Positions 5,002 through 29,609 of a stretch of 36,535 nucleotides of DNA are shown here, piece after piece. Within the stretch, counting starts at the first letter, position 1. Each line of letters starts with the position of its first letter. The translations under genes and the position numbers were made by a program. Origin of the DNA: Oscillospiraceae bacterium (lineage in GTDB: Bacteria > Bacillota > Clostridia > Oscillospirales > Oscillospiraceae). The DNA lies in the NCBI GenBank assembly GCA_017452605.1, contig JAFTMB010000073.1:1-36535 (forward strand). The letters run 5' to 3'. The notes beneath the pieces are model-generated. The model did not search any database. It was not told where the DNA came from and saw only the letters and a list, made by a program, of their open reading frames with translations.

Positions 5002-5070
5002 ACAAGATGAACTATTATGTAATGTGGTTTACTACGCCCTTAAAAAAATAGAGATTAGGGAGTGACAGAT

Positions 5071-6948
5071 ATGTTATCGGGAAAGAACATGCCCGGGCTG
5101 AGAGCGAAAGCTTTGCCCAGAGCAATTTTAATAGGCGTTTTGGATGTATTTTCCATCGCGGTGGCGTTTTTTCTGGCGCTGTGGGTTCGGTTTGATTTTC
5201 GGTTTGTTTCCATTCCTGTCCAGTACCTGCAAGGCTATCAGGAATCCATCATCATCTGGTGCGCTGTGTGCGTATTTGTGTTTTTGCTGTTCCGCTTGTA
5301 CAGCAGTGTGTGGAGCTTCGCCAGTGTCAATGAGCTGTTCTTGATTCTGGGCGCTTACTGCGTGCTGTGTGTGGCAGGCGTGGCGCTGAAAGCGGTTCTG
5401 GATCTGGATATGCCCCGGTCTTATTATGTGCTGGGCATGGTATTCAGCGGTATCTCCACCGTGTTTATCCGCTTTGCTTACCGCCTGCTGACAAGCCTTC
5501 GCAATCAGCTTGCCCATGTTCAGCGGGCAGGCCAGAACAACATCATGATCATCGGCGCAGGCGAGGCCGGTAAGAACCTGATTCATGAATTTGCCACCAG
5601 TGAGTTTGTCAAGGGAAATGTGATGTGCGTCATTGACGACAATCCCTCCAAGCGCAACAAGCGGCTGTGCGGTATTCCCGTGGTGGGCGACCGCAACGAC
5701 ATTCCCGAAATGGCAAAAAAATACCACATCGACATCATCATGTATGCCATTCCCTCCAGCTCCGCCGCGGAGCGCAAGGAGATTCTGAACATCTGCTCCA
5801 CCACCGGCTGCAAGGTGCAGGTTTTGCCGGGTATCTATCAGCTGGCAAACGAGGAAGTCAGCGTCAGCCAGCTGCGGCAGGTCAATCCCCAGGATTTGCT
5901 GGGCCGCGACCCCATTAAGGTCAATGTGGATGAGATTCTCGGCTACATTTCCGGCAAGGTGGTTATGGTCACCGGCGGCGGCGGATCCATCGGCAGCGAG
6001 CTGTGCCGCCAGATTGCCCGGGCGAAGCCCAAGCAGCTGGTGATTTTCGACATCTACGAAAACAACGCCTACGACATTCAAATGGAACTGAAAAGAACCC
6101 ACCCGGAGCTGAATCTGGAGGTTTTGATCGGTTCTGTAAGAAACACCGCCCGGCTGGACTATGTGCTGGGAACTTACCGCCCGGAGCTGATTTTCCACGC
6201 GGCTGCCCACAAGCATGTGCCGCTGATGGAAGACAGTCCCACAGAAGCCATTAAAAACAATGTCTTCGGCACATATAAGCTTGCCCAGGCTGCGGCAAAA
6301 TATGATGTAAAGCGCTTTGTTCTGATTTCTACGGACAAGGCTGTCAATCCCACCAATATCATGGGCGCGTCCAAGCGGCTGTGTGAAATGGTGGTGCAGA
6401 TGATGAACCGGGAATCCAAGACGGAGTTCGTCGCGGTGCGATTCGGCAATGTTTTGGGCTCCAACGGCTCGGTTATCCCCCTGTTTACCAAGCAGATTGC
6501 CGAGGGCGGCCCGGTAACGGTCACCCACCCCGACATTATCCGCTATTTTATGACCATTCCCGAGGCGGTCAGTCTGGTGCTCCAGGCGGGTTACTACGCC
6601 AAGGGTGGCGAAATTTTCGTGCTGGATATGGGCGAGCCGGTGAAAATTGACACCATGGCCAGAAACCTGATTCGCCTTTCCGGTTACGAGCCGGATGTGG
6701 ACATCAAGGTGGAATACACCGGCCTGCGTCCCGGCGAAAAGCTCTACGAGGAGCTGCTGATGAAGGAAGAGGGCCTGCAGGACACTGCCAACAAGCTCAT
6801 TCACATCGGCAAGCCCATCGAAATGGACGACGAAAGCTTCAAAAAGCAGCTGCAGCAGCTGGATGAGGCGTATCGGGTGGAAGACCCCAACATCAAGGAG
6901 CTGGTGGCGAAAATCGTGCCCACCTACAAGCTCACTACAAAAGTTTAA
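5071..6948 (+). CDS. membrane-anchored UDP-GlcNAc 4,6-dehydratase, PglF/WbpM/CapD type
   Basis: First enzyme of an aminosugar pathway: converts UDP-GlcNAc to the 4-keto-6-deoxy sugar. The protein is 625 aa. Four predicted membrane helices fill about residues 15-135. A CoA-binding-like Rossmann domain follows (IIGAGEAGKN). The catalytic extended-SDR domain has the NAD loop TGGGGSIGSE (301-310) and MGASK (431-435), where Met replaces the usual Tyr of YxxxK, as is typical of this dehydratase family. STDKAVNP and RFGNVLGSNGS are also family signatures. The ATG at 5071 is chosen over an in-frame GTG at 5062 because the ribosome site AGGGAG ends at the GTG. It opens the operon and is followed 14 bp later by the matching aminotransferase. 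Confidence 0.92.
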   Translation: MLSGKNMPGLRAKALPRAILIGVLDVFSIAVAFFLALWVRFDFRFVSIPVQYLQGYQESIIIWCAVCVFVFLLFRLYSSVWSFASVNELFLILGAYCVLCVAGVALKAVLDLDMPRSYYVLGMVFSGISTVFIRFAYRLLTSLRNQLAHVQRAGQNNIMIIGAGEAGKNLIHEFATSEFVKGNVMCVIDDNPSKRNKRLCGIPVVGDRNDIPEMAKKYHIDIIMYAIPSSSAAERKEILNICSTTGCKVQVLPGIYQLANEEVSVSQLRQVNPQDLLGRDPIKVNVDEILGYISGKVVMVTGGGGSIGSELCRQIARAKPKQLVIFDIYENNAYDIQMELKRTHPELNLEVLIGSVRNTARLDYVLGTYRPELIFHAAAHKHVPLMEDSPTEAIKNNVFGTYKLAQAAAKYDVKRFVLISTDKAVNPTNIMGASKRLCEMVVQMMNRESKTEFVAVRFGNVLGSNGSVIPLFTKQIAEGGPVTVTHPDIIRYFMTIPEAVSLVLQAGYYAKGGEIFVLDMGEPVKIDTMARNLIRLSGYEPDVDIKVEYTGLRPGEKLYEELLMKEEGLQDTANKLIHIGKPIEMDDESFKKQLQQLDEAYRVEDPNIKELVAKIVPTYKLTTKV

Positions 6949-6962
6949 AGAAGGTAGCTACC

Positions 6963-8216
6963 ATGGAAATGAAACCGTTTGAAAAGAAGGTTTGGCTCTC
7001 CACCCCCACCATGCACGGCGAGGAGCTGAAGTATGTCACCGAGGCCTACGAAACCAACTGGATGTCCACCGTCGGTAAGAATATCAACGAGGTGGAGCGG
7101 CTGGTTTGCGAGAAAATCGGCTGTAAGTACGCGGTGGCTCTGTCCGCCGGCACGGCCGCGCTGCACATGGCAGTGAAGCTGGCGGGTGTCAAGCCGGGTC
7201 AGAAGGTGTTCTGCTCCGACATGACCTTTGCCGCCACGGTCAACCCCGTGGTTTACGAGGGCGGCGTTCCCGTGTTCATCGACACGGAGTACGACACCTG
7301 GAATATGGACCCAGTGGCGCTGGAAAAGGCATTTGAACTTCACCCCGAAGTCAAAGTTGTGGTGGTTGCCCATTTGTACGGCACCCCCGGCAAGGTGGAT
7401 GAAATCCGGGAAATCTGCCGCCGTCACGGCGCGGTCATCATCGAAGACGCCGCCGAATCCATGGGCGCAACCTACAAGGGCGTTCAGACCGGCACCTTTG
7501 GCGACTATAACGCCATCAGCTTTAACGGCAACAAAATTATCACCGGTTCTTCCGGCGGCATGCTGCTGACAGACAGTTTGGAAGCTGCCAACAAGGTCAG
7601 AAAGTGGTCTACCCAGTCCCGGGAAAATGCTCCCTGGTATCAGCACGAAGAGGTTGGCTACAACTACCGCATGAGCAATGTGATTGCAGGCGTGGTTCGG
7701 GGACAGTTCCCTTATCTTGAGGAGCATATTGCCCAGAAAAAGGCGATTTACGAAAGATACCGGGAAGGCTTCAAGGACCTGCCGGTTTCCATGAACCCGG
7801 TGGACTTTGCCAACAGCGAGCCTAACTACTGGCTTTCCTGCATGATGATCGAGCCCCAGGCTATGTGCAAGCAGGTTCGGGGCGAGGCGGAAGCGTTGTA
7901 CATCCATGAGCCGGGCAAGACCTGTCCTACGGAAATCCTGGAAAAGCTGGCATGGCTGAATGCCGAAGGCAGACCCATTTGGAAGCCCATGCACATGCAG
8001 CCCATTTACCGTATGCACAGCTTTGTCACCCGGGAGGGCGACGGCCGGGCAAAGACCAATGCCTACATTGCCGGCGGCGCAGTGGGCGCAGATGGCAAGC
8101 CCCTGGATGTGGGTATGGATATTTTCCAGAGAGGTCTGTGCCTGCCCAGCGACAACAAGATGACGGAAAAGGAGCAGGAAATCATCATTCAGGTGATTCG
8201 CAGCTGCTTTGACTGA
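6963..8216 (+). CDS. DegT/DnrJ/EryC1 aminotransferase, PglE-like (UDP-4-keto sugar)
   Basis: PLP-dependent sugar aminotransferase of 417 aa. It probably aminates C4 of the 4-keto-6-deoxy UDP-GlcNAc made by the preceding gene, giving UDP-4-amino-4,6-dideoxy-GlcNAc. Seen: SAGTAALHMA near the N-terminus (phosphate contact), EDAAESMG (PLP-ring Asp) and the PLP lysine K191 in FNGNK. It is about 30 residues longer than typical PglE because of a segment around 300-345 before the conserved WKPMHMQP. It lies 14 bp after the dehydratase and 24 bp before a PglC-type transferase, the F-E-C set of bacillosamine pathways. The N-acetyltransferase of that pathway (PglD) is not in this operon. Confidence 0.9.
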   Translation: MEMKPFEKKVWLSTPTMHGEELKYVTEAYETNWMSTVGKNINEVERLVCEKIGCKYAVALSAGTAALHMAVKLAGVKPGQKVFCSDMTFAATVNPVVYEGGVPVFIDTEYDTWNMDPVALEKAFELHPEVKVVVVAHLYGTPGKVDEIREICRRHGAVIIEDAAESMGATYKGVQTGTFGDYNAISFNGNKIITGSSGGMLLTDSLEAANKVRKWSTQSRENAPWYQHEEVGYNYRMSNVIAGVVRGQFPYLEEHIAQKKAIYERYREGFKDLPVSMNPVDFANSEPNYWLSCMMIEPQAMCKQVRGEAEALYIHEPGKTCPTEILEKLAWLNAEGRPIWKPMHMQPIYRMHSFVTREGDGRAKTNAYIAGGAVGADGKPLDVGMDIFQRGLCLPSDNKMTEKEQEIIIQVIRSCFD

Positions 8217-8240
8217 GAGATAGACTAGAGGAGAAAAAGA

Positions 8241-8858
8241 ATGTACGCCAAATGTTTCAAACGGGTGCTGGATTTTACCCTTTCTCTTTGCGGTATTACG
8301 GTGCTGTTTCCGGTTTTGCTGGTGCTTACCGTGGTGGGCGCAATCAAAATGCAGGGAAATCCTTTCTTTACCCAGGAGCGTCCGGGTAAGAATGAAAAGA
8401 TTTTTAAGCTGATTAAATTCCGCACCATGTCCAACGCAAAGGACAAAGACGGAAACCTGCTGCCCGACGATGTGCGGCTCAACAGCTATGGAAGATTCCT
8501 GCGCTCCACCAGCCTGGATGAGCTGCCGGAGCTGTGGAACATTTTGGTTGGCGATATGAGCATCGTAGGGCCCAGACCCCTGCTGGTGCGCTACCTGCCC
8601 CGGTACAATGCCCAGCAGCGCCGCCGTCATGAGGTGCGGCCGGGTCTGACCGGTTACGCCCAGGTCAACGGACGAAACGCCCTTACCTGGGAGGATAAAT
8701 TCCGCATGGATGTGGAATATGTGGACAATATCACCTTCCTGGGGGATGTGAAAATCATTCTCGGAACGGTGAAGGCTGTGGTGAAGCGGGAGGGCATCAG
8801 CTCCGAATCCGCGGCAACCATGGAAGAATTTATGGGCACAAAGGAAGTGTCCGGCTGA
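8241..8858 (+). CDS. monotopic phosphoglycosyl transferase, PglC-like
   Basis: Initiating enzyme of glycan assembly: moves a sugar-1-phosphate from a UDP-sugar onto undecaprenyl phosphate at the inner face of the membrane. At 205 aa it is the short PglC form, without the extra membrane region of WcaJ/WbaP. Seen: an N-terminal hydrophobic re-entrant helix with a central proline (about 10-35, P24), FKLIKFRTM, the catalytic Asp-Glu pair D93-E94 in TSLDELPEL, and VGPRPLL. GLTGYAQVNGRN follows. Its position after PglF/PglE-like genes suggests a diacetamido- or 4-amino-4,6-dideoxy-hexose donor. The ribosome site is GAGGAG. Confidence 0.92.
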   Translation: MYAKCFKRVLDFTLSLCGITVLFPVLLVLTVVGAIKMQGNPFFTQERPGKNEKIFKLIKFRTMSNAKDKDGNLLPDDVRLNSYGRFLRSTSLDELPELWNILVGDMSIVGPRPLLVRYLPRYNAQQRRRHEVRPGLTGYAQVNGRNALTWEDKFRMDVEYVDNITFLGDVKIILGTVKAVVKREGISSESAATMEEFMGTKEVSG

Positions 8859-8889
8859 CAGGCGAAAAAAGGGAAAGGTCGAAAGAGAA

Positions 8890-10008: not shown

Positions 10009-10041
10009 AGCTGCGGGGGCTTTTCCCGCAAAGGAGATTTT

Positions 10042-10971: not shown

Positions 10972-10999
10972 GAATGATTGAACCAACCGGAAAGAAAGG

Positions 11000-13320: not shown

Positions 13321-13332
13321 AGGAGAGAGAAT

Positions 13333-14352: not shown

Positions 14353-14365
14353 GGAGTGAAAGGCG

Positions 14366-15280: not shown

Positions 15281-15283
15281 ACC

Positions 15284-15892: not shown

Positions 15893-15902
15893 GGAGAGAA
15901 AA

Positions 15903-16892: not shown

Positions 16893-16893
16893 T

Positions 16894-18336: not shown

Positions 18337-18353
18337 ACACGGAGGCGTTATTT

Positions 18354-19506: not shown

Positions 19507-20631
19507 TTATTTTACCCCCAGCTTTTCAAAAACGGCGGCTTCCGCCTTTTTGAATTTGACAAGGAATTTATCATAGTGGCGATCCCACAGCCGGAAAAAG
19601 GGCGTTTCCAGGAAACGAATCCGAAGATAGTCAATGCCGGTGCAGACCGCGTAAATTGCCAAAACACTGCCGATGGCGTGCAGGGGCATCCAGGCTTTGC
19701 TGTATGTGCCTACATTGTCCAGGGTGTCAACCCACAGCCAGTGGCGCATCAGGTCGCTGTTGGTGTGAATGAGCAGCACGCCAAAAGAGGATGCGGCCAG
19801 GGTGTTGATAAACCGGCTGTTGGGAATGGACACATTTTTGAAGAACATGAACGCGCAGAAGCCGGTGACAAGGGCTAAAATGGCGTTGGAATCGGATACA
19901 AAGTAATAAGTAAGATTCTTGCCGATTTTGCTCATCAGCCATGCGCCTGCCACAACGCTCAGGGCGCTCAGCGCCACCGAGCACAGGGTCATAATGCCCC
20001 AGACCTTGGTGTTTTCAAACAGCTTGTTGGGATACAGCCGCACATAGGAAGAGAACAGATACAGCACGGCGAACCAGGAAACATAGTTCATGTACAGGGT
20101 GAAGATCATTTTCAGCGTGCCGGTGAGCACATACATGAAGCTCATCAGCAAAAGAAGATAGATGTGCTGCCGCTGGGTCATGTGGTTTACCAGCACATTC
20201 AGGAAAGGAATGGTCAGGAAAAATACCAGATACGCCCCGGTAAAGCCAACGCCGATTTCCGTGACAGGGAAGAAAATGCTTATCAGGCTGCCCAGAGAGA
20301 AGCTGCCGTAGCCGAAGATAAAGAACAGGAAATTGATGACGATGTTGTAAAACACCACTTCCAGGAACAGCTTGGCGAATTTCTTTGCGGAAATGGAGGA
20401 CTTGCACATAAAATAGCCGGAAATGAGGACAAAGCAGTTGATGCCGGTCTTTCCCCAGGCGCCGAACAGCAAAAGAAACAGCGACGGCGCGGCGGTGGGA
20501 TTTGCCAGAACCGGGCCGCCGGCATATAGGCCGGAGTTGACCACATAGTGGTGGGCGATGACCAGAAGCATTACCAAAATGCGAAAAAGCTCCAGATTGG
20601 AGTTTCTCGCAGGTTTGGGTTGGGTAGACAT
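19507..20631 (-). CDS. acyltransferase family 3 membrane protein (O-antigen O-acetylase-like)
   Basis: Polytopic membrane protein of 374 aa with about 10 helices. It probably O-acetylates a surface glycan. Seen: the family N-terminal motif SNLELFRILVMLLVIAHHY with the essential His pair (H27-H28), GINCFVLISGYF and LETPFFRLWDR at the end. The frame is open to 20727, but the ATG at 20631 is chosen: AGGAGGAAC lies just upstream and the protein then begins where family members do. It has its own promoter and faces the polysaccharide operon, so it is a likely decoration enzyme for that polymer. Confidence 0.88.
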   Translation of the reverse strand: MSTQPKPARNSNLELFRILVMLLVIAHHYVVNSGLYAGGPVLANPTAAPSLFLLLFGAWGKTGINCFVLISGYFMCKSSISAKKFAKLFLEVVFYNIVINFLFFIFGYGSFSLGSLISIFFPVTEIGVGFTGAYLVFFLTIPFLNVLVNHMTQRQHIYLLLLMSFMYVLTGTLKMIFTLYMNYVSWFAVLYLFSSYVRLYPNKLFENTKVWGIMTLCSVALSALSVVAGAWLMSKIGKNLTYYFVSDSNAILALVTGFCAFMFFKNVSIPNSRFINTLAASSFGVLLIHTNSDLMRHWLWVDTLDNVGTYSKAWMPLHAIGSVLAIYAVCTGIDYLRIRFLETPFFRLWDRHYDKFLVKFKKAEAAVFEKLGVK

Positions 20632-20665
20632 GGACAGTTCCTCCTGAAAAAGGATATATATGTCG

Positions 20666-20694
20666 AGTTTAGCAAAAAAGGGGGGAGGTGTCAA
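20666..20694 (-). promoter_or_regulatory. promoter of the acyltransferase-3 gene
   Basis: Minus strand: TTGACA (20689-20694), a 17-bp spacer, TAAACT (20666-20671). It lies just beyond the terminator of the liv/CoA-transferase operon, so the acyltransferase gene is a separate transcription unit. Confidence 0.8.
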
Positions 20695-20718
20695 GAGCGG
20701 GGGAAGATCATAAAGAAA

Positions 20719-20750
20719 CGCTGCCACCGAAAGGAAATTCAGTGGCAGCG
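20719..20750 (-). terminator. terminator of the liv/NeuD/CoA-transferase operon
   Basis: Stem CGCTGCCAC (20719-20727 on the plus strand) with GTGGCAGCG (20742-20750), loop 14 nt, followed on the minus strand by TTTCTTTA. Begins 14 bp after the CoA-transferase stop. Confidence 0.75.
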
Positions 20751-20763
20751 GAGAGAAATGTTT

Positions 20764-21975
20764 TTACTTAACAGCGCCGACTTCGTGCATGTGACGAATG
20801 GTTTCCTCGTCGTAGCCAAAGCTGCGCAGGACATCGTCGGTCTGCTCGCCCATTTTCGGGGCGGGAACGGCGGGGTCTTTCACATAAGTGCCCAGATGGA
20901 TGGGAGGGCAGGACATAATGCTCTTTTCGCCGTTGCGGTTGGTCAGCTCCTCAATGAAGCCGTTGGCCCATGCCTGCTCGTCAACCAGTACATCGGTCAT
21001 GTGGGGCAGCTTGCCGATGACCAGGTCGTTATCCCGGAATTCCTTCATCCACTGGTCGGAGGTCTTTTTCTTCATGGCCTTGCGGATCATGGGGATCAGG
21101 GTTTCGGACATGTTGTAGTAGGTTTCCACGGTGACATTGCCGATGGCGTCGATCTCCTTGTCAATGCCCAGCAGCTTGTACATGAGGGGTGCGTCCTTGT
21201 CGTAAGCCCGGACGGAAATGTTGCACCACTCGCCGTCGGCGCACTCGTAGTTGTTGGTTAGAGGATCGCCGTGGCTGGGAGAAAAGGGGAACTTTTCGCC
21301 GTACTTGGGGTTTGCCCGCAGCAGCATGGAGCTCATTGCCCAGATGGCTGCGCCGTACAGGGAAACATTGACGATGTCACCCTTGCCGGTGCGCTCCCGG
21401 TTATAAAGCGCGGTCATGATGCCTGCCACCAAAAAGCCGCCGCTGACGCAGTCGCCAATGCCGGAGGTGGGGGGCAGGGGGAAGGAGTTTTCCGCCTTGT
21501 AGGGAATGTCCATGCTGAAGCCGGAGCGGGCCCAGAAGGAGATGTTGTCAAATCCGGGGCTGTCGGCGTCGGGACCCTTGGAGCCGAAGCCGTCAATGCT
21601 GGCGTGAATCAGACGGGGGAAGCGGGCGGTGAGGGTTTCGGCGTCCAGACCCAGCTTGCGAAGAGAGCGGGCCCGGGTGTTGGTGACGAAAATGTCGGCA
21701 GATTCCAGAAGCTTCATGGTAAATGCCAGACCTTCTTCGGTCTTGATATTGACGCAGATGCTCTTCTTGCCGGTGTTGTACACATCGAACACGGGGTTCT
21801 CGTCGTCGTTGGTGCTGAGCATTTTCTTGCCGGTTTCACGCCACTGGTCGCCGGTGAAGCTTTCAATCTTGATGACCTCGGCGCCCATATCGCACAGCAT
21901 TCTGGCAGCGCCGGGGGCGGCAACATAGGTGCTCAGTTCCACGACCTTTATGCCGGCCAAAGGCTTGTTGTTCAT
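20764..21975 (-). CDS. CoA-transferase family III (CaiB/BaiF)
   Basis: Moves CoA between carboxylic acids; cytoplasmic. The protein is 403 aa, typical length. Seen: VVELSTYVAAPGAARMLCDMGAEVIKIE at the N-terminus (split: VVELSTYVAAPG, then GAEVIKIE), the catalytic aspartate D175 in GIGDCVSGG, and RERTGKGDIVNVSL. It resembles the 2-hydroxyacyl/aryl-acyl group (HadA, FldA) more than formyl-CoA transferase, but no dehydratase genes are nearby, so the substrate is unknown. The ATG at 21975 has GGAGGAAT 6-8 nt upstream; an in-frame TTG at 21993 is less likely. It is the last gene of the operon, 18 bp after a NeuD-type acyltransferase, which suggests it supplies an acyl-CoA to that enzyme or handles an acid imported by the Liv system. 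Confidence 0.88.
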   Translation of the reverse strand: MNNKPLAGIKVVELSTYVAAPGAARMLCDMGAEVIKIESFTGDQWRETGKKMLSTNDDENPVFDVYNTGKKSICVNIKTEEGLAFTMKLLESADIFVTNTRARSLRKLGLDAETLTARFPRLIHASIDGFGSKGPDADSPGFDNISFWARSGFSMDIPYKAENSFPLPPTSGIGDCVSGGFLVAGIMTALYNRERTGKGDIVNVSLYGAAIWAMSSMLLRANPKYGEKFPFSPSHGDPLTNNYECADGEWCNISVRAYDKDAPLMYKLLGIDKEIDAIGNVTVETYYNMSETLIPMIRKAMKKKTSDQWMKEFRDNDLVIGKLPHMTDVLVDEQAWANGFIEELTNRNGEKSIMSCPPIHLGTYVKDPAVPAPKMGEQTDDVLRSFGYDEETIRHMHEVGAVK

Positions 21976-21993
21976 AATGTATTCCTCCGTCAA

Positions 21994-22638
21994 TCAGTTC
22001 TGCAGGGGCTTGATCAGCTTGGCAGGAACACCCACATAGGTGCCGGGAACGGTGGCGTCCTTGACAACCACGGCAGCTGCGCCGAAGGTGCAGTTTTCCG
22101 TGATGTTGATTTTGTTGATGATGGTGCAGCGCAGGCCAAAGTAGCAGCCCTTGCCGATGTAGGTGTCGCCGCCGGTGATGGTTTCGGACATCATGCTGAC
22201 ATAGTCAGCAATTACGGTGTCGTGACCCAGGCCGCACTCCATGTTCATGATGCAGTGCTTGCCCACATGGGAGTTGACAGCCAGGATAACGCCCTCGCAC
22301 AGAATGCTGCCTTCGCCAACGGTGCAAAGCTTGCCCTTCATGCGGACAGTGGGGTGGATCAGGGTGGCGAAGGGAATGCCGGCCTCCTCGCAGATGCCAG
22401 CCAGTCGCTCTCTGGCGGCGGCGTTGGCAATGGCGATGACGACATGAGGCTTGGGATTCATATTCTTCAAATATTCCATATCGCCCAGGACGCTGTAACC
22501 CTCGGGAGATTCACCGGTGGAATAGTCGGCGATGAAGCCTACAAAGTTCCAGGTGGGGGTCACTTCGTTGATTTCTTCTACAAGGGCCAGGGTTTCTCTG
22601 CCGAAGCCGCCGGCGCCGATAATGACAAGATCTTTCAT
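21994..22638 (-). CDS. NeuD/PglD/VioB-family N-acyltransferase (hexapeptide repeat)
   Basis: Sugar-nucleotide acyltransferase of 214 aa. An N-terminal Rossmann-like domain (VIIGAGGFGRET, residues 5-16) binds the nucleotide sugar in PglD. A left-handed beta helix follows (about 95-205) with the catalytic histidine H139 in LGHD, and the C-terminal GVPAKLIK of the CoA site. It is complete by PglD standards. In PglD and VioB the substrate is a UDP- or dTDP-4-amino-4,6-dideoxyhexose; the nearby polysaccharide operon makes both kinds and lacks such an enzyme. It lies between livF (26 bp gap) and the CoA-transferase, an unusual setting. Sialic-acid O-acetylation (NeuD) is unlikely because no sialate genes are present. 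Confidence 0.87.
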   Translation of the reverse strand: MKDLVIIGAGGFGRETLALVEEINEVTPTWNFVGFIADYSTGESPEGYSVLGDMEYLKNMNPKPHVVIAIANAAARERLAGICEEAGIPFATLIHPTVRMKGKLCTVGEGSILCEGVILAVNSHVGKHCIMNMECGLGHDTVIADYVSMMSETITGGDTYIGKGCYFGLRCTIINKINITENCTFGAAAVVVKDATVPGTYVGVPAKLIKPLQN

Positions 22639-22664: not shown

Positions 22665-23387
22665 TTATTCCATACCCATATAGCTTTTACGAATCAGGTC
22701 GTCCTTCAGCAGGTTTTCTGCGGTGTCGGAGCCTACAATGCTGCCGGTTTCCAGAACATAGCCCCGGTTGGCAACCTCCAGAGCGGCGTTGACATTCTGC
22801 TCAACCAGCAAAATGGGAAGACCGCTTTCGTTGATCTTTTTGATGGCGGCGAAAATGCCTTCAACAATGATGGGAGCAAGACCCAGGCTGGGCTCGTCCA
22901 GCATCAGCAGCTTGGGCTTTTGCATCAGCGCCCGGCCCAGAGCCAGCATCTGCTGCTCGCCGCCGGAAAGGGTGCCGCCGGCCTGCTTTTCCCGCTCTTT
23001 CAGCCGGGGGAACAGGTCAAACACGTATTCCAGATCGTCGGCAACCTCTTTGGACTTGGCAGAGCGCAGGTAAGCGCCCATCATCAGATTCTCCTTAACA
23101 GAAAGCTGGGAGAAGATGCGTCTGCCCTCAAAGCAGTGGGCGATGCCCATGCCTGCAATCTTGTGGGGAGCAGTGCCGTTGATTTTTTCGCCCATGAAGT
23201 AGATTTCACCGGCGGTGATGCCTTTATACAGGCCGGAAATGGCGGTCAGCGTGGTGGTCTTGCCTGCGCCGTTGCCGCCCAGCAGGGTGACGATCTCGCC
23301 CTCGCCGATAGAGAGGGAGATGCCGTGAAGAGCGACGATTTCGCCGTACTGGAAGTGCAGGTCTTTGATTTCAAGAATGTTTTCCAT
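22665..23387 (-). CDS. livF: branched-chain amino acid-type ABC transporter ATPase LivF
   Basis: One of two ATPases of a HAAT-family importer. The protein is 240 aa. Walker A is GGNGAGKTT (37-45), the signature is LSGGEQQ (140-146), and Walker B is KLLMLDEP (159-166), followed by the LivF-typical SLGLAPIIVE. ILLVEQN contains the H-loop region with Gln in place of His, normal for LivF. Its start overlaps the livG stop by one base (TAATG), so the two ATPases are made together. Confidence 0.95.
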   Translation of the reverse strand: MENILEIKDLHFQYGEIVALHGISLSIGEGEIVTLLGGNGAGKTTTLTAISGLYKGITAGEIYFMGEKINGTAPHKIAGMGIAHCFEGRRIFSQLSVKENLMMGAYLRSAKSKEVADDLEYVFDLFPRLKEREKQAGGTLSGGEQQMLALGRALMQKPKLLMLDEPSLGLAPIIVEGIFAAIKKINESGLPILLVEQNVNAALEVANRGYVLETGSIVGSDTAENLLKDDLIRKSYMGME

Positions 23388-24142
23388 TACTTTGCCCCTC
23401 CCAGATAAGCTTTGATAACATCGGGGTTGTTCTGAATTTCCTCGGGCGTACCCTCGGCCAGCTTGTTGCCGTGGTTAAGCACGCAGATGCGGTCACATAC
23501 CTTCATAACCAGCTTCATGTTGTGCTCGACGATGAGGACGGTGTAGCCCAGATCCCGGATTTTCAGAATGGTGTCGGTGAGAATGTCCTTTTCCGTCAGG
23601 TTCATGCCTGCGGCAGGCTCGTCCAGCAGCAACAGCTTGGGATTGCTGACCAGAGCTCTGGCAATTTCCAGACGGCGCTGGTCGCCGTAGGGCAGGCTGC
23701 CTGCCAGGGAATCTTCCAGATGGCCGATGCCCATAAATTCCAGCACCTCGCGGCAGCGGCGGATGGCCTCTTCGTGCTCTGCGCGGGAGCGCTTGGTGTT
23801 AAAAATCGCGTCGAAAATGTTGGCCCGGGTTTGGGTGTGGCAGCCGACGAGAACATTTTCCAGCACGGTCATTTTCTTAAACAGGTTGATGTTCTGGTAG
23901 GTGCGGGCGATGCCCTTTTGGGCGATCTGGTTGGACAGCTTACCCTGGATTTCCTCGCCGTTGAAGATAACTTTGCCGGCGGTGGGCTTGTAAAAGCCGC
24001 TGATGACATTGAAAAGGGTGGTTTTACCGGCGCCGTTAGGACCGATCAGACCGAAGATTTCGCCCTTGTGAACCTCGGCGCAAACATCGTTGTTGGCAGT
24101 CAGACCGCCAAAAACCATGGAAACGTGATCAATTTTCAGCAT
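23387..24142 (-). CDS. livG: branched-chain amino acid-type ABC transporter ATPase LivG
   Basis: Second ATPase of the importer, 251 aa from the preferred ATG at 24142. GGAGGTG precedes that ATG; an in-frame GTG at 24151 would add three residues. Walker A is GPNGAGKTT (34-42). The signature is the LivG form LPYGDQRRLEIARAL. Walker B is LLLLDEPAAGMN. IVEHNM gives the H-loop His. The C-terminal extension (GTPEEIQNNPDVIKAYLG) is typical of LivG. It overlaps the livM 3' end by 14 bp. Confidence 0.95.
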   Translation of the reverse strand: MLKIDHVSMVFGGLTANNDVCAEVHKGEIFGLIGPNGAGKTTLFNVISGFYKPTAGKVIFNGEEIQGKLSNQIAQKGIARTYQNINLFKKMTVLENVLVGCHTQTRANIFDAIFNTKRSRAEHEEAIRRCREVLEFMGIGHLEDSLAGSLPYGDQRRLEIARALVSNPKLLLLDEPAAGMNLTEKDILTDTILKIRDLGYTVLIVEHNMKLVMKVCDRICVLNHGNKLAEGTPEEIQNNPDVIKAYLGGAK

Positions 24143-25133
24143 TTTCCGCACCTCCGTTCCGGGTAGCTTCGGCCCGCTTGCTCAGAAGCTTCATAACGGC
24201 GGTTTTGCCGCTTTTGTAAAGGCCGATGATGCCGTTGGGGAAGAAGAACAGAACCAGCAGCATAAACAGAGCATAAATCAGGCCCTGATAGGTGGAGAAG
24301 GTCTGGAACACTTCCTTGAACAAAAGCAGAACAATGGCGCCGATGACAGGGCCGGCCAGGGTGGTGATGCCGCCAAAGAGCAGCATGGTCATAAACAGCA
24401 CAGATTGCGTGCCGTTAAAGGTTTCGGGGCTGATAAAGCCGCGCAGGAAAGCGTACAGACCGCCTGCAAGGCCGGTCATGGCAGCGCTGACGGCGAAGGC
24501 CAAAACCTTGTATTTTTGAACGTCAATACCGAGGCCTCTTGCGGCCACGGTGTTTTCCCGAATGGCAATAAAGGCGTTGCCTACCCGGGAGCGGATGATC
24601 CGGTGCTTCACCAGCAGTACAATTGCCAGAATCACCCAGATCACGATGGCGCCTTTGAGGTTGGAGTTAACCTCAAAACCAAACACATTCAGATAGGGAA
24701 TGTTCATAATTCCCAGGCTGCCGCCGGTGACTTCTGTCCAGGAGTTGATAATCAGGTAGATGATCTGGCCAAAGGCGATCATCAAAAGGGACAGAAAGTG
24801 CTTCACCAGCTTGGATGCAGGGATAGCGATCAGCGCGCCGATCAGGGCGGTGATGGCAGAGCCCAGCACCAGCGACAGCAGAGAGGGCACGCCGAACTTA
24901 ATGGTAAGCAGGGCGGAAGAATAAGCGCCGATGGCGAAAAGACCTGCATGACCCAGAGAAATCTGGCCGGTATAGCCGAACAGAACGTCAAGGGATGTAG
25001 CCACAATGGCATAGATGCCAAACAGAGCGATAATCAGCGCGTAGTATGTCTTTTGGGCCAGCACCAGCATGAGAGCCGTTGCGGCAATCAGCAGGAGCAG
25101 CGTCCATTTGTTTTTCGAAATAAAAGCTTTCAT
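24129..25133 (-). CDS. livM: branched-chain amino acid-type ABC transporter permease LivM
   Basis: Membrane subunit of 334 aa with about 8-10 helices. Seen: the LivM pattern DVLFGYTGQISLGHAGLFAIGAY, the cytoplasmic coupling segment with SRVGNAFIAIRENTVAARGLGIDVQKYK, and GGITTLAGPVIGA. It is preceded by GGAGGAGG and lies 13 bp after livH. Confidence 0.95.
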   Translation of the reverse strand: MKAFISKNKWTLLLLIAATALMLVLAQKTYYALIIALFGIYAIVATSLDVLFGYTGQISLGHAGLFAIGAYSSALLTIKFGVPSLLSLVLGSAITALIGALIAIPASKLVKHFLSLLMIAFGQIIYLIINSWTEVTGGSLGIMNIPYLNVFGFEVNSNLKGAIVIWVILAIVLLVKHRIIRSRVGNAFIAIRENTVAARGLGIDVQKYKVLAFAVSAAMTGLAGGLYAFLRGFISPETFNGTQSVLFMTMLLFGGITTLAGPVIGAIVLLLFKEVFQTFSTYQGLIYALFMLLVLFFFPNGIIGLYKSGKTAVMKLLSKRAEATRNGGAENAEN

Positions 25134-25146
25134 TCTTTTCCTCCTC

Positions 25147-26031
25147 CTATTCGATAACCTTTTCCTTGAAAAGGCCGGTGGGGGAGATCGCCAGAATGAT
25201 AATCAGCATAGCGAAGGTGATGGCGTCTTTGTAGGTGGTGGTCAGGTAAGCGGAAACAAAGGTCTCCATAAAGCCGTAGAACAGACCGCCGATGACCGCG
25301 CCGTAGATGTTGCCATAGCCGCCGGTAACAGCACCTGCAAAGGCCTTTTGGGCGATCATGGCGCCCATGGTGGAGTAAACGCCGTAAACGGGGCCCAGAG
25401 CCATGCCAACAACGCCGGCAAGACCCGCAGATAAGCCCCAGGTGATGCCCTTGGTCAGCTGCACATTGATACCCACGGAGCTGGCGGCGGTTTGATCCAG
25501 CGCGGAAGCTCTCATGGCAGTGCCCAGCTTGGTTTTGTTGATGAACAGGAACAGGCCGATTGCGCCGAATGCGGCGATAAACAGAACCAGAAGATTTTCA
25601 GGAGCCACCTTGGCGCCGAAAATATCCACGGCGCCGGTGTCAAAAATTGCGGGGAAGGGCAGGGTGTAGGGAGACCAGATAATCTGGGAGCCATTCTGGA
25701 AAGCCAAAGAAAGGGCAGAGGTGCAAAGAATAATAAAGGAGAAGCTGGCGCCCTTATTTAAAAGCGATGTGATCAGGTATCGCTGGACCACATAGCCCAA
25801 TGCGAACATGACGATAAAGGTGAGAATAAAACTCAAAACGATATTCAGCCCCAGGGTCTTGTAGAAGGTAAGACCGACAAAGGCGCCCAGCATCAGAAAA
25901 TCGCCCTGAGCCAGGTTCATCAGACCGGTTGCCTTGTAGATCAGGCTGTAGCTCATGCCCATAACGGCATAAACCGAGCCGATCATGAGCGCGCCGATCA
26001 CCAGTCGGATAATGGTGGATTCAGTCGTCAT
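25147..26031 (-). CDS. livH: branched-chain amino acid-type ABC transporter permease LivH
   Basis: Membrane subunit of 294 aa with about 8 helices. Seen: GSVYAVMGMSYSLIYKATGLMNLAQGDFLMLGAF (LivH signature), the coupling segment TKLGTAMRASALDQTAASSVGI, and GGYGNIYGAVIGG. The frame is open to 26112, but the ATG at 26031 has AGAAAGGA about 8 nt upstream, and the extra N-terminal residues would run through the inverted repeat that follows livJ. Confidence 0.95.
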   Translation of the reverse strand: MTTESTIIRLVIGALMIGSVYAVMGMSYSLIYKATGLMNLAQGDFLMLGAFVGLTFYKTLGLNIVLSFILTFIVMFALGYVVQRYLITSLLNKGASFSFIILCTSALSLAFQNGSQIIWSPYTLPFPAIFDTGAVDIFGAKVAPENLLVLFIAAFGAIGLFLFINKTKLGTAMRASALDQTAASSVGINVQLTKGITWGLSAGLAGVVGMALGPVYGVYSTMGAMIAQKAFAGAVTGGYGNIYGAVIGGLFYGFMETFVSAYLTTTYKDAITFAMLIIILAISPTGLFKEKVIE

Positions 26032-26080
26032 AATGGTGTTCCTTTCTGTAATGGCTTTCTGGTGGCCCTTACTGTACAGA

Positions 26081-26118
26081 AAATATGTGCTGTTAAATTG
26101 CTTTAACAGCACATATTT
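26081..26118 (-). promoter_or_regulatory. long perfect inverted repeat between livJ and livH
   Basis: Perfect 17-bp stem, 26081-26097 with 26102-26118, loop of 4 nt. On the minus strand the right arm is followed by TCTGTAC, so the U-tract is short. It begins 16 bp after the livJ stop and ends 50 bp before livH. This is the usual place for a hairpin that protects the binding-protein message or partly terminates, so that more LivJ than permease is made. Confidence 0.8.
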
Positions 26119-26133
26119 ACCTTTGGAGTCAGA

Positions 26134-27288
26134 TTATTTCAGCAGAGCGGCCTTGTCGTAAACCTGAATCTTGCCGTCCATGATCATCCACTTGTTAGCG
26201 GAGGTCAGGCCGTCGCCGGTGCCGTTGGTGAAGTCGAAGGTGCCGCCCAGCAGCTCAATGCCGGACAGAGCCTTGAAGGCCTTCATGATGGATTCGCCGT
26301 CTTCCACGTTCTCACAGTTCTTCAGAGCCTCAACAATCAGGCGGCCCTGGTCGTAGCCACGGTAGAAGCAGTCGCTGTAAGGCATTTCGCCGAAGTCCTT
26401 AACATAGCGCTTCAGAACATCCTGAATCTGAGCGGTAGCGCCCTCTTCAGCGGTAGCGGGAACAACATAAGCAGCGGAGAAAACAACGTTGTTGGAAGCA
26501 TCGCCTGCAACGCTGAACATTTCGGAGTTGGCGCCGCCTTCGATGGTAAAGATCAGATCCTCGTAGCCGTTCTGACGCAGCTGCTTGGTGATCAGAGCCA
26601 GCTCGGTGCCCAGGCCGTAAACAACCAGGGTGTCAGCGTTGGCAGACAGAGCGTTGGAGATAACGCCGGTGTAGTCGGTTTCAGCGGACTGGTAGATAAC
26701 GTCAGCCTTGACTTCGATGTTGTTGGCAGCGCAGGCAGCCACAACAGCATCATGGCCACTCTGGCCGTACTCGGAAGCAACGGAGATCAGGGCGATGGAC
26801 TTCATGCCGCAGTCAACCAGCTGCTCAACCATGGTAGCAACGGGCAGGTTGCCGTTGGCGGTAGCGCGGTAGGTGTAGTTCAGGCCGATGTTGGTCCAGG
26901 TGGCGCCGGTGCCGGTGCCGACATGCAGAACCTTGGCTCTCTCGGTCAGAGCGGAAACAGCCAGAACGCTGGAGCTGAGGAAGGAACCTGCGATAACCTT
27001 AACGCCGTCCTGCTCGATCAGACGGGTAGCGGCCTTGGTTGCGCCCTCGGTGGTTCCGGCGGAGTCATAGGTGACCAGCTTCAGCTGCTTGCCGTCGATG
27101 CCGCCGGCGGCGTTGATTTCCGCCAGGGCCATTTCAATACCCCGAACTTCGCAGATACCGCTGCCGGCGTTGGAACCGGTCAGGGGCATGTAGCAGCCGA
27201 TCAGGATTTCATTGGTCTTTTCAGCGCTGCAGGCGCACAGAGTGGCCAGCATAGTCAGAAGAAGTACGATAGAAATAAGCTTTTTCAT
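26134..27288 (-). CDS. livJ: ABC importer substrate-binding lipoprotein, LivJ-like
   Basis: Extracytoplasmic ligand-binding protein of 384 aa (Peripla_BP_6 type). A lipoprotein signal peptide is present: MKKLISIVLLL then TLCAC, with C20 as the lipidated residue. The mature part starts ILIGCYMPLTGSNAG and contains GIEMALAEINAAGGIDGKQLKLV, both typical of the family. HAAT binding proteins take branched-chain or aromatic amino acids, amides, and aromatic or other hydrophobic acids, so leucine is not certain. The ATG at 27288 is preferred to a TTG at 27300 because the signal peptide then starts correctly; its ribosome site is weak (AAAGG, 12 nt). It lies 55 bp after the fusion gene, with no terminator between. 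Confidence 0.93.
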   Translation of the reverse strand: MKKLISIVLLLTMLATLCACSAEKTNEILIGCYMPLTGSNAGSGICEVRGIEMALAEINAAGGIDGKQLKLVTYDSAGTTEGATKAATRLIEQDGVKVIAGSFLSSSVLAVSALTERAKVLHVGTGTGATWTNIGLNYTYRATANGNLPVATMVEQLVDCGMKSIALISVASEYGQSGHDAVVAACAANNIEVKADVIYQSAETDYTGVISNALSANADTLVVYGLGTELALITKQLRQNGYEDLIFTIEGGANSEMFSVAGDASNNVVFSAAYVVPATAEEGATAQIQDVLKRYVKDFGEMPYSDCFYRGYDQGRLIVEALKNCENVEDGESIMKAFKALSGIELLGGTFDFTNGTGDGLTSANKWMIMDGKIQVYDKAALLK

Positions 27289-27343
27289 TTTGTTTTCCAA
27301 CCTTTACAAAGTTATAGTGTAGCCCCGGTCGGGGAGTGCGCTC

Positions 27344-27991
27344 TTAAAGAGAACTTGCCTTGCGGAGAGTTTGGGGATTGACGATTTCGCCGCAATCCAC
27401 ATAGCTCCAATCCGGCAAAACCACATTTCGGTCGATGGTGGCGCCGCTGGAAATGATGCAGCCCTTGCCGATCACCGCGCCGGTTCCGATGGTGGCGCGG
27501 GCGCAGACAACGGTTCCGCCGCCGATTTGGGCGCTGTGGGAAACCACTGCGGTAGGGTGAATCAATGTGGGGATCAGGAAGCCGGCGTCAATCAGCTCCT
27601 GAGTCCACCGCCGCCGCAGGAGGGTATCTCCCACCGCGGGAATGGCCACGGGGAATTCATTCCGATACTGGGATAAGTTCCTGCAAGGGCCGATGGCTCC
27701 CTTTTTGCCGGGGTCGTCGTCGAGAAAGCAGATTTTGCGGGAAATGCGAAGATCCTGCGCCAGTTCCATCACTTCTTCACCGTGACTTCCGGCGCCGAGA
27801 ATCAGCAAGGAAAGCTCCCGCATGACAGGCTTGTCTGCCCGGAGCACCTCTTCCCGCTTTGCGCTGGCCTCTTCCAGGGAACGACCGTAGCAATATCCGT
27901 AGATAATGCGGCCCTGCTCGTCCCGCTCTTTCATATAACGGGCCTCGTAGCGGCCGTCTTTTCTCAGTCGAATATTATTACCAGTTCTCAT
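27344..27991 (-). CDS. fusion: integrase-type Arm DNA-binding domain + truncated NeuD/PglD-like domains
   Basis: Protein of 215 aa with an unexpected layout. Residues 1-50 (RKDGRYEARY at 10-19, GRIIYGYCYG at 27-36) read like the three-stranded Arm DNA-binding domain at the N-terminus of Tn916-type tyrosine integrases. Residues 60-125 are a NeuD/PglD Rossmann domain (LLILGAGSHGEEV). Residues 145-205 are hexapeptide repeats. The position of the catalytic His of PglD (EHDC) reads IDRN, and the beta helix stops right after it, so the later coils that bind acetyl-CoA are absent. I infer a DNA-binding, perhaps nucleotide-sugar-sensing protein without acyltransferase activity. No recombinase domain is present. 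The ATG at 27991 has GAGGG upstream; the internal Met57 has no ribosome site. It is the first gene of the liv/NeuD/CoA-transferase operon. A decayed chimera is the alternative. Confidence 0.78.
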   Translation of the reverse strand: MRTGNNIRLRKDGRYEARYMKERDEQGRIIYGYCYGRSLEEASAKREEVLRADKPVMRELSLLILGAGSHGEEVMELAQDLRISRKICFLDDDPGKKGAIGPCRNLSQYRNEFPVAIPAVGDTLLRRRWTQELIDAGFLIPTLIHPTAVVSHSAQIGGGTVVCARATIGTGAVIGKGCIISSGATIDRNVVLPDWSYVDCGEIVNPQTLRKASSL

Positions 27992-28004
27992 AATCCCTCA
28001 TTCG

Positions 28005-28016
28005 TGGTCATGACCA
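28005..28016. promoter_or_regulatory. palindrome TGGTCATGACCA, candidate operator
   Basis: Perfect 12-bp palindrome lying between the predicted transcription start (near 28025) and the ribosome site of the fusion gene, at about +10 to +20. It is the same two hexamers as in the two upstream inverted repeats, here without a spacer. A factor bound here would block transcription. Confidence 0.7.
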
Positions 28017-28031
28017 TTTGCTTTCCCTTAA

Positions 28032-28059
28032 ATTATACCGTAAAATTGGGGAAAGTCAA
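28032..28059 (-). promoter_or_regulatory. promoter of the Arm-NeuD/liv/CoA-transferase operon
   Basis: Minus strand: TTGACT (28054-28059), a 16-bp spacer, TATAAT (28032-28037). The predicted start is near 28025. It is the only good promoter between the upstream terminator (28151-28176) and livJ, so it probably serves the whole operon down to 20764. Confidence 0.85.
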
Positions 28060-28078
28060 CAACTATTTTCGTTTTTTA

Positions 28079-28101
28079 TGGTCATTTTGCCATTCTGACC
28101 A
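28079..28101. promoter_or_regulatory. inverted repeat TGGTCA-N11-TGACCA, candidate operator (proximal)
   Basis: TGGTCA at 28079-28084 and TGACCA at 28096-28101. The centre is about 65 bp upstream of the predicted start, a usual position for an activator site next to the -35. Confidence 0.7.
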
Positions 28102-28120
28102 CTTATAAAGCTTTTAATAG

Positions 28121-28143
28121 TGGTCAAATTGGGCTTATGACCA
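28121..28143. promoter_or_regulatory. inverted repeat TGGTCA-N11-TGACCA, candidate operator (distal)
   Basis: TGGTCA at 28121-28126 and TGACCA at 28138-28143. Same half-sites and same 11-bp spacer as the proximal site, exactly 42 bp (about four helical turns) further upstream. The spacer bases differ, so only the half-sites are conserved. Confidence 0.7.
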
Positions 28144-28150
28144 AAAGAAA

Positions 28151-28176
28151 AAGCGAAGTGAAAAATCACTTCGCTT
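28151..28176. terminator. terminator of the PlsC-like/TVP38/YfcC operon
   Basis: Perfect 11-bp stem, AAGCGAAGTGA (28151-28161) with TCACTTCGCTT (28166-28176), A/T-rich loop, T-run on both strands. It begins 14 bp after the YfcC-type stop (28191) and separates this operon from the next. Confidence 0.88.
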
Positions 28177-28190
28177 TTTTAAGGTAATTT

Positions 28191-29609
28191 TTACAGGCCG
28201 ATGTACACCGCCAACAGCAAAAATGCGATGGAAAGCACAAACAGCATTCCCTGCAGCAGCGCGGTTTTCTTCAGCCACTGGGTGTAGCTGACCTCCGCAA
28301 GACCCAGGCCCACAACCAGCGTTCCGCAGGTGGGGTAGAGGACATTGGTATAGCCGTCGCCGAACAAAAATGCCAGGATAATGATGTTGGTGCTGATGCC
28401 CGGCAGGGGCGCCAGGGTCAGCAGGGGAATCAGAAGCAACGCCTTTGCAAGAGAGCCGGGAATAAAGAACTCAATCACCAGCACCAGCAGGTAAAGGAGA
28501 ATCACCGCAAAATAGGGGGATTGGGCGCTGATATACTGATGGCAGTAGTAGAAGATGGTGTGCAGAATGTTTCCGCACTCAGCGATGTATTTTACGCTGA
28601 AGGCCAGCAGGATAATCACAATGGAGGGGGACAAATCCTTGGCGCCCTTGAGAAACTGCTTCAAGGTTTCCCTAAAGCTGCCCAGCTCCTTTTTGCCGAT
28701 GCAGCAGGCGCCGATGATAAAGGCCAGAGTCATGAACACCATACCCATGCCAAGGTCAGCGATGGCGGGAATGACGGATGCCAGAACAATCACCGCCAGC
28801 ACCGCAAGAAACAGGGCAAATACCGCGCTGGCTTTTTTGGCATTGCGCGTTTTGTCTTCTTCCGAGGCTTCGGCGGGGAAAGCCTCCCGCGCAAGGTTTC
28901 CGCTGTCCTTTTCATCCTTTTTCGCCATGTACACCAGGTACAGCGAGGTAAGTACATACAGAAGCAGGAAAATAGCCACCCGATACCAAATGCCGTCTAA
29001 AATGCTGACGCCTGCCAGCTCCGTGGCAACGCCTACGGTAAAGGGGTTGAAAATGGCGGTGGTAAAGCCGACGCCGGTGGTAACCAAAATCAGGCTGACC
29101 GCCAGAGTGTTGCTCCAGTTCATGGCTGCGGAAAAGGTAAGGAAAATGGGGAACAGAATCAGCAGCTCCTCCTGTAGACCAAAGCAGGAAGCCAGGAGCA
29201 TCATCAGCAGGGTGATCATCCAAATCAGCTGAAAGCGCTTGTTGTAGAACCTGGCGATAATCACCTGCACAACGGCGTACAGACCGCCGCTGGCGTCCAG
29301 AATCTTAAAGCTGCCGCCCAAAATCAAAAGCACGGCGATAATCTGAATTACCTGAAGATTGCCGCTGCCGAGAATCAGAGATTCAACCGGTGCGGTAATC
29401 CAGCGGTAAACCGGCAGCCGGGTGGCGTTTTCCAGTAAGGAAAAGGAATCCACAATCACATTGCCGTCGCTGTCAAGCTGATAGCTGCCGGCGGGAATCA
29501 CAAAGGTCAGCACGCCGACAAAGATAATCACGCCGATTAAGATGCCGCAAATGGTAAGAAAGCTTTTTAGCCCGATTTTAACATCCTGGTTTAATTGTTT
29601 ATTCTCCAT
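28191..29609 (-). CDS. YfcC/DcuC-type membrane carrier
   Basis: Polytopic membrane protein of 472 aa with about 12 helices, of the C4-dicarboxylate anaerobic carrier (DcuC) superfamily, YfcC group. Seen: an N-terminal helix followed by VLTFVIPAGSYQLDSDG (the conserved PAG-Y element), FGLQEELLILFPIFL in the middle, and FFIPGSLAKALLLIPLLTLAP with PTCGTLVVGLGLAEVSYTQWLK near the end, all common to YfcC proteins. Members are thought to move dicarboxylates, amino acids or peptides; the substrate here is unknown. The frame is open to 29651; the ATG at 29609 follows GAGGAG and overlaps the end of the preceding gene by 11 bp. Confidence 0.88.
   Translation of the reverse strand: MENKQLNQDVKIGLKSFLTICGILIGVIIFVGVLTFVIPAGSYQLDSDGNVIVDSFSLLENATRLPVYRWITAPVESLILGSGNLQVIQIIAVLLILGGSFKILDASGGLYAVVQVIIARFYNKRFQLIWMITLLMMLLASCFGLQEELLILFPIFLTFSAAMNWSNTLAVSLILVTTGVGFTTAIFNPFTVGVATELAGVSILDGIWYRVAIFLLLYVLTSLYLVYMAKKDEKDSGNLAREAFPAEASEEDKTRNAKKASAVFALFLAVLAVIVLASVIPAIADLGMGMVFMTLAFIIGACCIGKKELGSFRETLKQFLKGAKDLSPSIVIILLAFSVKYIAECGNILHTIFYYCHQYISAQSPYFAVILLYLLVLVIEFFIPGSLAKALLLIPLLTLAPLPGISTNIIILAFLFGDGYTNVLYPTCGTLVVGLGLAEVSYTQWLKKTALLQGMLFVLSIAFLLLAVYIGL

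Follow-up and report, generated by a model that had tools for sequence, protein, structure and literature searches.

What is the role of a protein that begins like the DNA-binding Arm domain of an integrase and continues like a nucleotide-sugar enzyme? The question is posed by one gene, here named Arm-NeuD, on contig JAFTMB010000073.1 (assembly GCA_017452605.1) of an Oscillospiraceae bacterium, whose positions 1 to 36,535 were analysed as a whole and are called the window below. A first-pass annotation, made from the sequence alone, had suggested that the protein regulates transcription of its own operon in response to a nucleotide sugar. This is the reading we favour, with a probability of about 0.6: Arm-NeuD would be a one-component transcription factor acting at its own promoter, with the Arm binding TGACCA repeats and the NeuD-derived pocket sensing a nucleotide-amino-sugar. 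DNA binding, ligand and sign of regulation are inferred. DNA binding is favoured because of the Arm-like sequence, its predicted fold, a motif that recurs in 14 of 15 other loci and related repeats beside integrases. Control of its own operon is favoured because each of the other inverted pairs listed in the draft genome, which is incomplete, falls within an open reading frame (ORF). A nucleotide sugar is favoured because the family retains the Asp pair that binds uridine and has lost the catalytic His, and because there are Pgl-like genes in the vicinity.

The Rossmann domain and hexapeptide repeats described behind the N-terminus were both recovered with Pfam (Table 1), but this part of the description needs correction, as it is a shortened NeuD from which the catalytic His is absent. 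The NCBIfam model NeuD_NnaD (TIGR03570) aligns its positions 2-144 of 202 with residues 62-198, so the NeuD half lacks the C-terminal portion, and the score of 100.8 bits falls below the cut-off of 160.8. Residues 1-58 of the window protein have no Pfam match, and no ROK kinase fold with a helix-turn-helix was matched by Pfam in it. PglD_N and hexapeptide repeats occur together in all 40 family members scanned (Pfam, E <= 10), and the catalytic domain of tyrosine recombinases (PF00589) was matched by Pfam neither in these 40 nor in the window protein. Arm-NeuD is neither a NeuD, by curated cut-off and catalytic residue, nor a recombinase.

A random fusion confined to one genome had been named as one finding that would refute this view. 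A search of about 5.8 billion proteins returned 430 matches at E <= 0.001, and the best 120 of these share 60-97% identity with the query at 93-100% coverage. Relatives are encoded at 56 loci in named genome contigs; 22 of these match over most of the length (L004-L025) and 34 within residues 1-63 only. A chance fusion or assembly fault is ruled out by this recurrence of the layout in many genomes, and Arm-NeuD is a conserved family with relatives in at least 22 other genomes. The fusion loci carry the labels Clostridia, Oscillibacter, Oscillospiraceae, Lachnospiraceae, Hungatella, Eubacterium, Ruminococcus, Erysipelotrichia, Bacillota and Longibaculum muris; one further fusion locus is labelled as a Neobacillus metagenome-assembled genome, a label that we judge unreliable. 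An alignment of 40 members has 45 invariant columns, 18 of them in the first 45 residues. Our gene calls around the loci are crude, and in L004 and L014 a longer overlapping ORF displaced the fusion. Its own genome aside, no second full-length fusion was found in 60 relatives (E <= 0.001) or in 391 genomes of the class (E <= 1e-30). Viral contigs gave a single locus, matching just residues 2-51, and among plasmid records no match reached 80% coverage of the query. No Arm-NeuD protein appeared among the papers listed by full-text literature searches, most subscription journals being outside their reach. Two kinds of locus stand apart in the family. A broken reading frame interrupts the fusion gene of L025 (Longibaculum muris), with upstream half-sites still present. 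The divergent fusions L018-L024 have Tyr8, Ile23, Ser at residue 145 and Ser, Thr or Glu at 188, without TGACCA sites or Pgl-like neighbours.

The proposal that residues 1-58 form an Arm domain is borne out by the 34 loci that match this part only. ORFs of more than 300 amino acids are present in 29 of them, and all five Arm-only ORFs that were scanned match phage-integrase profiles, four of them PF00589 above cut-off. The structure check suggested earlier gave a predicted β-β-β-α arrangement (strands at residues 7-9, 15-23 and 29-36, helix at 39-53), that is, the three-stranded sheet of an Arm followed by a helix. Direct matches to known Arm domains are faint. The Arm of the Tn916 integrase (PF02920) was matched in one of 40 members, below threshold at E 0.018, and AP2 matches were sub-threshold and confined to L030 and L018. 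With the Arm model, Foldseek gave a best E of 0.19 and no Tn916 integrase among the 50 matches listed, and VIA-align placed the Tn916 integrase at ranks 22 and 30, after AP2, ribosomal and double-stranded RNA (dsRNA)-binding chains. A sequence profile run against the PDB reached the Tn916-type entries 1b69 and 1bb8 at E 2.9 and 3.1 only; its best match, a pilin at E 0.0032, was judged spurious. Among the Arm-only loci, L045 (ORF 9995-11302) encodes an integrase-like protein of about 436 amino acids, similar in length to those of L048, L050 and L051, that matches PF00589 only below cut-off and a helix-turn-helix at residues 356-399; proteins of this type are possibly another case of an integrase turned regulator.

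The enzyme half appears to have lost its chemistry and kept its binding site. According to PMC8040287, PglD-type enzymes hold the uridine with a pair of Asp residues, have a His as the likely base (His125 of PglD, His142 of Pcryo_0637) and form trimers through the β-helix. Among known structures, the full-length model of Arm-NeuD best matches the acetyltransferase domain of Neisseria PglB (4m98, E 3.3e-12). We compared 143 aligned rows, comprising 121 database proteins including the query, 21 loci (L004-L024) and, as a reference, the intact NeuD of the window; L025, with its broken frame, was left out of these counts, and the 142 family rows may include near-identical proteins. At the position of the catalytic His, none of the 142 family rows has His, 135 having Arg or Lys and 7 Ser, Thr or Glu, and all 142 keep both Asp residues of the uridine pair. 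The window NeuD has the catalytic His, with Ala-Asp in place of Asp-Asp at the uridine site. Two loci (L061, L084) hold short stand-alone NeuD-like ORFs of 172 and 169 amino acids without an Arm, which keep an Asp-His-Asp and an Asn-His-Asn motif, respectively, near the catalytic position and may be similar to the protein from which the enzyme half of the fusion arose.

Repeated half-sites had been reported to frame the promoter of the gene, and six exact copies of TGACCA/TGGTCA were found within 152 bp upstream of the Arm-NeuD start codon. We tallied the 300 bp upstream in 16 loci (the window, L004-L017 and L025, the last counted as found) and obtained 49 exact TGACCA sites, versus 2.67 expected from the remainder of the same loci and a mean of 1.9 (maximum 7) in 300 dinucleotide shuffles of the upstream regions. 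At least two exact sites are present in 15 of the 16 loci. Because the hexamer was taken from the window, the 15 other loci are its test; they hold 43 of the 49 sites, and 14 of them have at least two. TGACCA is also the commonest hexamer in 15 upstream regions (L007 left out), with 45 occurrences, followed by GACCAC, which overlaps it. Just 7 of 120 pairs of upstream regions align (E < 1e-3), and L006 and L007 are closely related (73% over 302 bp upstream). L017 lacks the exact hexamer and has shortened cores (GACCA), and promoter scans gave poor matches in some other loci (L005, L010, L025).

The sites also recur in preferred arrangements. With a slightly relaxed core, direct repeats are 10 bp apart in six loci, never more than 60 bp from the start codon; in L012 the distance between them is 11 bp. 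Inverted pairs of the form TGACCA...TGGTCA, again with a relaxed core, are 14-15 bp apart in six loci and 24-26 bp apart in five (25 bp in the window), spacings that differ by about one helical turn; others exist, such as 17 bp in the opposite sense, seen twice in the window. In the draft genome (1.46 Mb, 83.8% complete), one inverted-pair pattern was found at 10 places and the other at 11; with the patterns reversed as controls, the counts were 1 and 0. Of the 21 places, three make up the cluster before Arm-NeuD. In the remaining 18, which fall in 15 stretches, every pair is inside an ORF of 80 amino acids or more and two single half-sites are intergenic; codon usage may account for the excess over the controls. 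As to a wider regulon, the two pattern searches listed no intergenic inverted pair elsewhere in this incomplete draft, in which direct repeats were not searched genome-wide. Rfam, applied to 27800-28400 at E <= 0.5 for an RNA element, returned six matches, all far under their gathering scores.

Table 1. Features of the window that bear on Arm-NeuD, with position, strand and basis of assignment.
Feature	Position	Strand	Basis
Arm-NeuD gene, 215 amino acids, ATG start	27344..27991	-	ORF and translation; 430 protein matches; full-length model with mean pLDDT (predicted local distance difference test) 91.7
Arm-like, putatively DNA-binding domain, residues 1-58	27818..27991	-	N-termini of integrase ORFs match; predicted β-β-β-α; weak structural matches including AP2 and Tn916 integrase
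PglD_N Rossmann-like domain, residues 62-133, Asp pair D91-D92	27593..27808	-	PF17836, E 1.1e-9, above cut-off; Asp pair in 142/142 rows
Shortened left-handed β-helix, residues 139-205, Arg188 at catalytic His position	27377..27577	-	PF00132 at residues 154-187, E 1.1e-9, above cut-off; model strands; His in 0/142 rows
Distal half-sites TGGTCA-N11-TGACCA (-152 and -135)	28121..28143	-
Distal half-sites TGGTCA-N11-TGACCA (-110 and -93)	28079..28101	-
Inverted pair TGACCA-N19-TGGTCA (-135 and -110, 25 bp apart), arrangement common to other loci	28096..28126	-
Promoter-like TTGACT-16-TATAAT between distal and proximal sites	28032..28059	-	Consensus match, no proof of a promoter
Proximal palindrome TGGTCATGACCA, 12 bp (-25 to -14)	28005..28016	-
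Importer genes, branched-chain amino acid type	22665..27300	-	Coordinates; Pfam/NCBIfam for binding protein and first permease only
Importer binding protein	26134-27300	-	Pfam and NCBIfam
Importer first permease	25147-26112	-	Pfam and NCBIfam
Importer second permease	24129-25133	-	Reading of sequence only
Importer ATPases	23387-24151 and 22665-23387	-	Reading of sequence only
Intact NeuD, catalytic His present, Ala-Asp at uridine site	21994..22638	-	TIGR03570, 170.4 bits, cut-off 160.8
CoA (coenzyme A)-transferase family III	20764..21993	-	PF02515, E 2.2e-80
Acyltransferase family 3 membrane protein, last of same-strand run	19507..20727	-	PF01757, E 2.1e-14 for 19507-20634
Pgl-like row: Polysacc_synt_2 dehydratase, DegT aminotransferase, bacterial sugar transferase	5062..8858	+	Pgl-like roles are our reading

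The integrases that share the Arm suggest which protein recognises these sites. GGTCA direct repeats stand on both sides of four of the 29 longer integrases (L052, L053, L054, L057), and AGTCA direct repeats follow five (L026, L036, L042, L043, L044). In all, the flanks of the 29 hold eight GGTCA and eight AGTCA direct repeats, versus 0.04 expected of each, values that overstate the surprise because the counts were set up after the flanks had been inspected. In L026, L036 and L044 tandem GCAGTCA repeats, about 11-12 bp apart, lie just past the integrase stop codon and are likely arm-type sites. The core also goes with residue 8 of the Arm, in a table that, like the repeat counts, was drawn up post hoc and omits five integrase loci with ORFs below 300 amino acids. 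GGTCA occurs within 200 bp of 15 of 16 fusions with Arg8 and beside all five Arg8 integrases; AGTCA accompanies all eight Phe8 integrases, two of which have GGTCA as well, and seven of eight with Thr8 or Ser8, where GGTCA is absent (0/8). None of the seven Tyr8 fusions has either core. Against a clean code count the seven Tyr8 integrases, which are mixed (L055 has four GGTCA), a Lys8 integrase with both cores, and AGTCA near 7 of 16 Arg8 fusions, where it is part of a TTGACT promoter box. As the proteins are related, we treat the pattern as a lead and not as proof. The Arm of Arm-NeuD is the likely reader of the TGACCA sites, since crude gene calls show no other gene cluster shared by all loci, related repeats lie beside integrases that carry this Arm, and the identity of residue 8 follows the core in most cases.

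Arm-NeuD had been placed first in an operon with an importer, an intact NeuD homologue and a CoA-transferase, and these neighbours were confirmed: an ATP-binding cassette importer, a NeuD scoring above its cut-off and a family III CoA-transferase lie behind it on the same strand, closely spaced. A polysaccharide cluster, 5062-19454(+), converges on this run. We read the dehydratase, DegT aminotransferase and sugar transferase at its start as PglF-, PglE- and PglC-like; they are followed by glycosyltransferases, a Wzy-like ligase, RmlA, B, D and C (by reading only), a flippase and a second DegT aminotransferase. There is no acetyltransferase gene within the Pgl-like row, a step that the NeuD of the Arm-NeuD run could fill, although this NeuD might instead serve a dTDP-sugar. 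Comparable genes accompany the fusion elsewhere. The order Arm-NeuD, aminotransferase, sugar transferase, NeuD is found in L008 and L012; L006 and L007 have a NeuD, a peptide-type importer and a CoA-transferase homologue; and in L011, L013 and L015 a BCCT transporter adjoins the fusion (L011 matches PF02028, the others being assigned by cluster). PglE-like genes occur in 8 and PglC-like genes in 9 of 15 related loci (E <= 1e-10); at the same threshold neither was found in the 34 integrase loci or the seven divergent fusions. In L011 and L013 a sugar kinase and a nucleotidyltransferase, both by reading only, are encoded nearby. A DapH-type acetyltransferase at 3912-4604(+) of the window (PF08503, E 6.7e-26) has no relation to Arm-NeuD.

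Arm-NeuD probably represses its own operon, which would serve to modify a nucleotide-amino-sugar. The β-helix would assemble a trimer, so that each particle holds three Arms, and these could connect distal with proximal sites over the promoter, looping the DNA and repressing transcription. Release would come with a build-up of the 4-amino-sugar nucleotide, most likely a UDP-sugar, that the Pgl-like dehydratase and aminotransferase produce: bound in the retained pocket, it would shift the Arms, free the DNA and open the operon. The importer and CoA-transferase would then make an acyl-CoA, from which the intact NeuD would attach the acyl group and thereby consume the sugar. The sign of regulation, the ligand and the trimer are the least certain of these steps.

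The rival to be taken most seriously, though we think it unlikely, keeps the DNA-binding factor and makes it an activator, or gives it another ligand, such as a dTDP-sugar, the imported acid or its CoA ester. The distal sites lie upstream of the promoter, a common place for activators, but most loci have proximal sites near the start codon (those with 10-bp direct repeats among them), which suits a repressor. A different ligand would agree with the three importer types that follow Arm-NeuD in different loci and with the missing first Asp in the window NeuD; against it, Arm-NeuD itself keeps the Asp pair.

It is improbable that a different regulator binds the TGACCA sites and that Arm-NeuD has another role. 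The proximal palindrome TGGTCATGACCA resembles operators of GntR-type regulators of the FadR type. Against such a regulator, no gene cluster other than Arm-NeuD is common to all loci within about 9-10 kb, as judged from crude ORF calls; the integrases with related repeats have only the Arm in common with Arm-NeuD; and fusions with a divergent Arm lack the sites. More improbable still, Arm-NeuD might be a recombination partner that occupies arm-type sites and steers or blocks a tyrosine recombinase acting on these promoters. The Arm and the core of the sites are indeed shared with integrases, but the draft genome, 83.8% complete, holds no second protein with this Arm at E <= 0.001, and the sites frame a promoter with no visible invertible segment. 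Least probable of all is that Arm-NeuD is still an enzyme, a nucleotide-sugar acyltransferase of altered chemistry whose Arm-like part is an oligomerisation or RNA-binding module: the fold resembles active PglB and PglD and the Arm model is also similar to dsRNA-binding domains, but the His is missing in all 142 family rows, the C-terminal part of the NeuD profile is absent, an intact NeuD stands in the same gene run, and a working acetyltransferase is not favoured at a NeuD score under the cut-off.

Two observations weigh against regulation by a nucleotide-amino-sugar at TGACCA sites, as we favour it. None of the seven divergent fusions (L018-L024) has a TGACCA site within 200 bp, and our account does not cover them. 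In the window NeuD the first Asp of the uridine pair is missing, and for this reason we put a broader proposition a shade below even odds. It holds that Arm-NeuD represents a new class of transcription factor, in which a nucleotide-sugar enzyme, now dead, acquired the DNA-reading head of a mobile-element integrase, a domain with an AP2-like fold that still reads its former arm-type sites, now around the promoters of surface-glycan operons, with Arg8 reading GGTCA, Phe8 or Thr8 reading AGTCA and a trimer with three Arms looping the promoter. If true, this would be a bacterial route from the DNA-binding domain of a mobile element to a gene switch, with a one-residue code of DNA specificity common to integrases and regulators. 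These bacteria would also possess a direct sensor of nucleotide-amino-sugars, for which few transcriptional sensors are known to us, and Arm-NeuD would flag operons of surface-glycan modification and hint at their inducers in uncultured bacteria.

Arm-NeuD can be set beside four known systems. With the NeuD/PglD/PglB N-acetyltransferases (TIGR03570; PDB 4m98, 3bsy, 7l7z) it has in common the PglD_N Rossmann-like domain, the hexapeptide β-helix and the uridine Asp pair, and it differs from them in its additional N-terminal Arm-like domain, its replaced catalytic His and the absence of the C-terminal part of the profile. Compared with the Arm of tyrosine recombinases of the Tn916 integrase type (PDB 1b69, 1bb8), its Arm has no recombinase catalytic domain behind it and falls below Pfam thresholds. 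To our knowledge, an Arm-type DNA-binding head has not been found in any other bacterial regulator. The AP2 transcription factors (PDB 7wq5, 7et4, 1gcc) match it with weak scores, have a different sensor and belong to plants. ROK-type repressors such as NagC and Mlc combine a helix-turn-helix with a kinase fold, unlike Arm-NeuD, and we claim no homology; they are nevertheless alike in plan, with a DNA-binding domain placed ahead of a sugar-enzyme fold that would, in Arm-NeuD, serve as the sensor.
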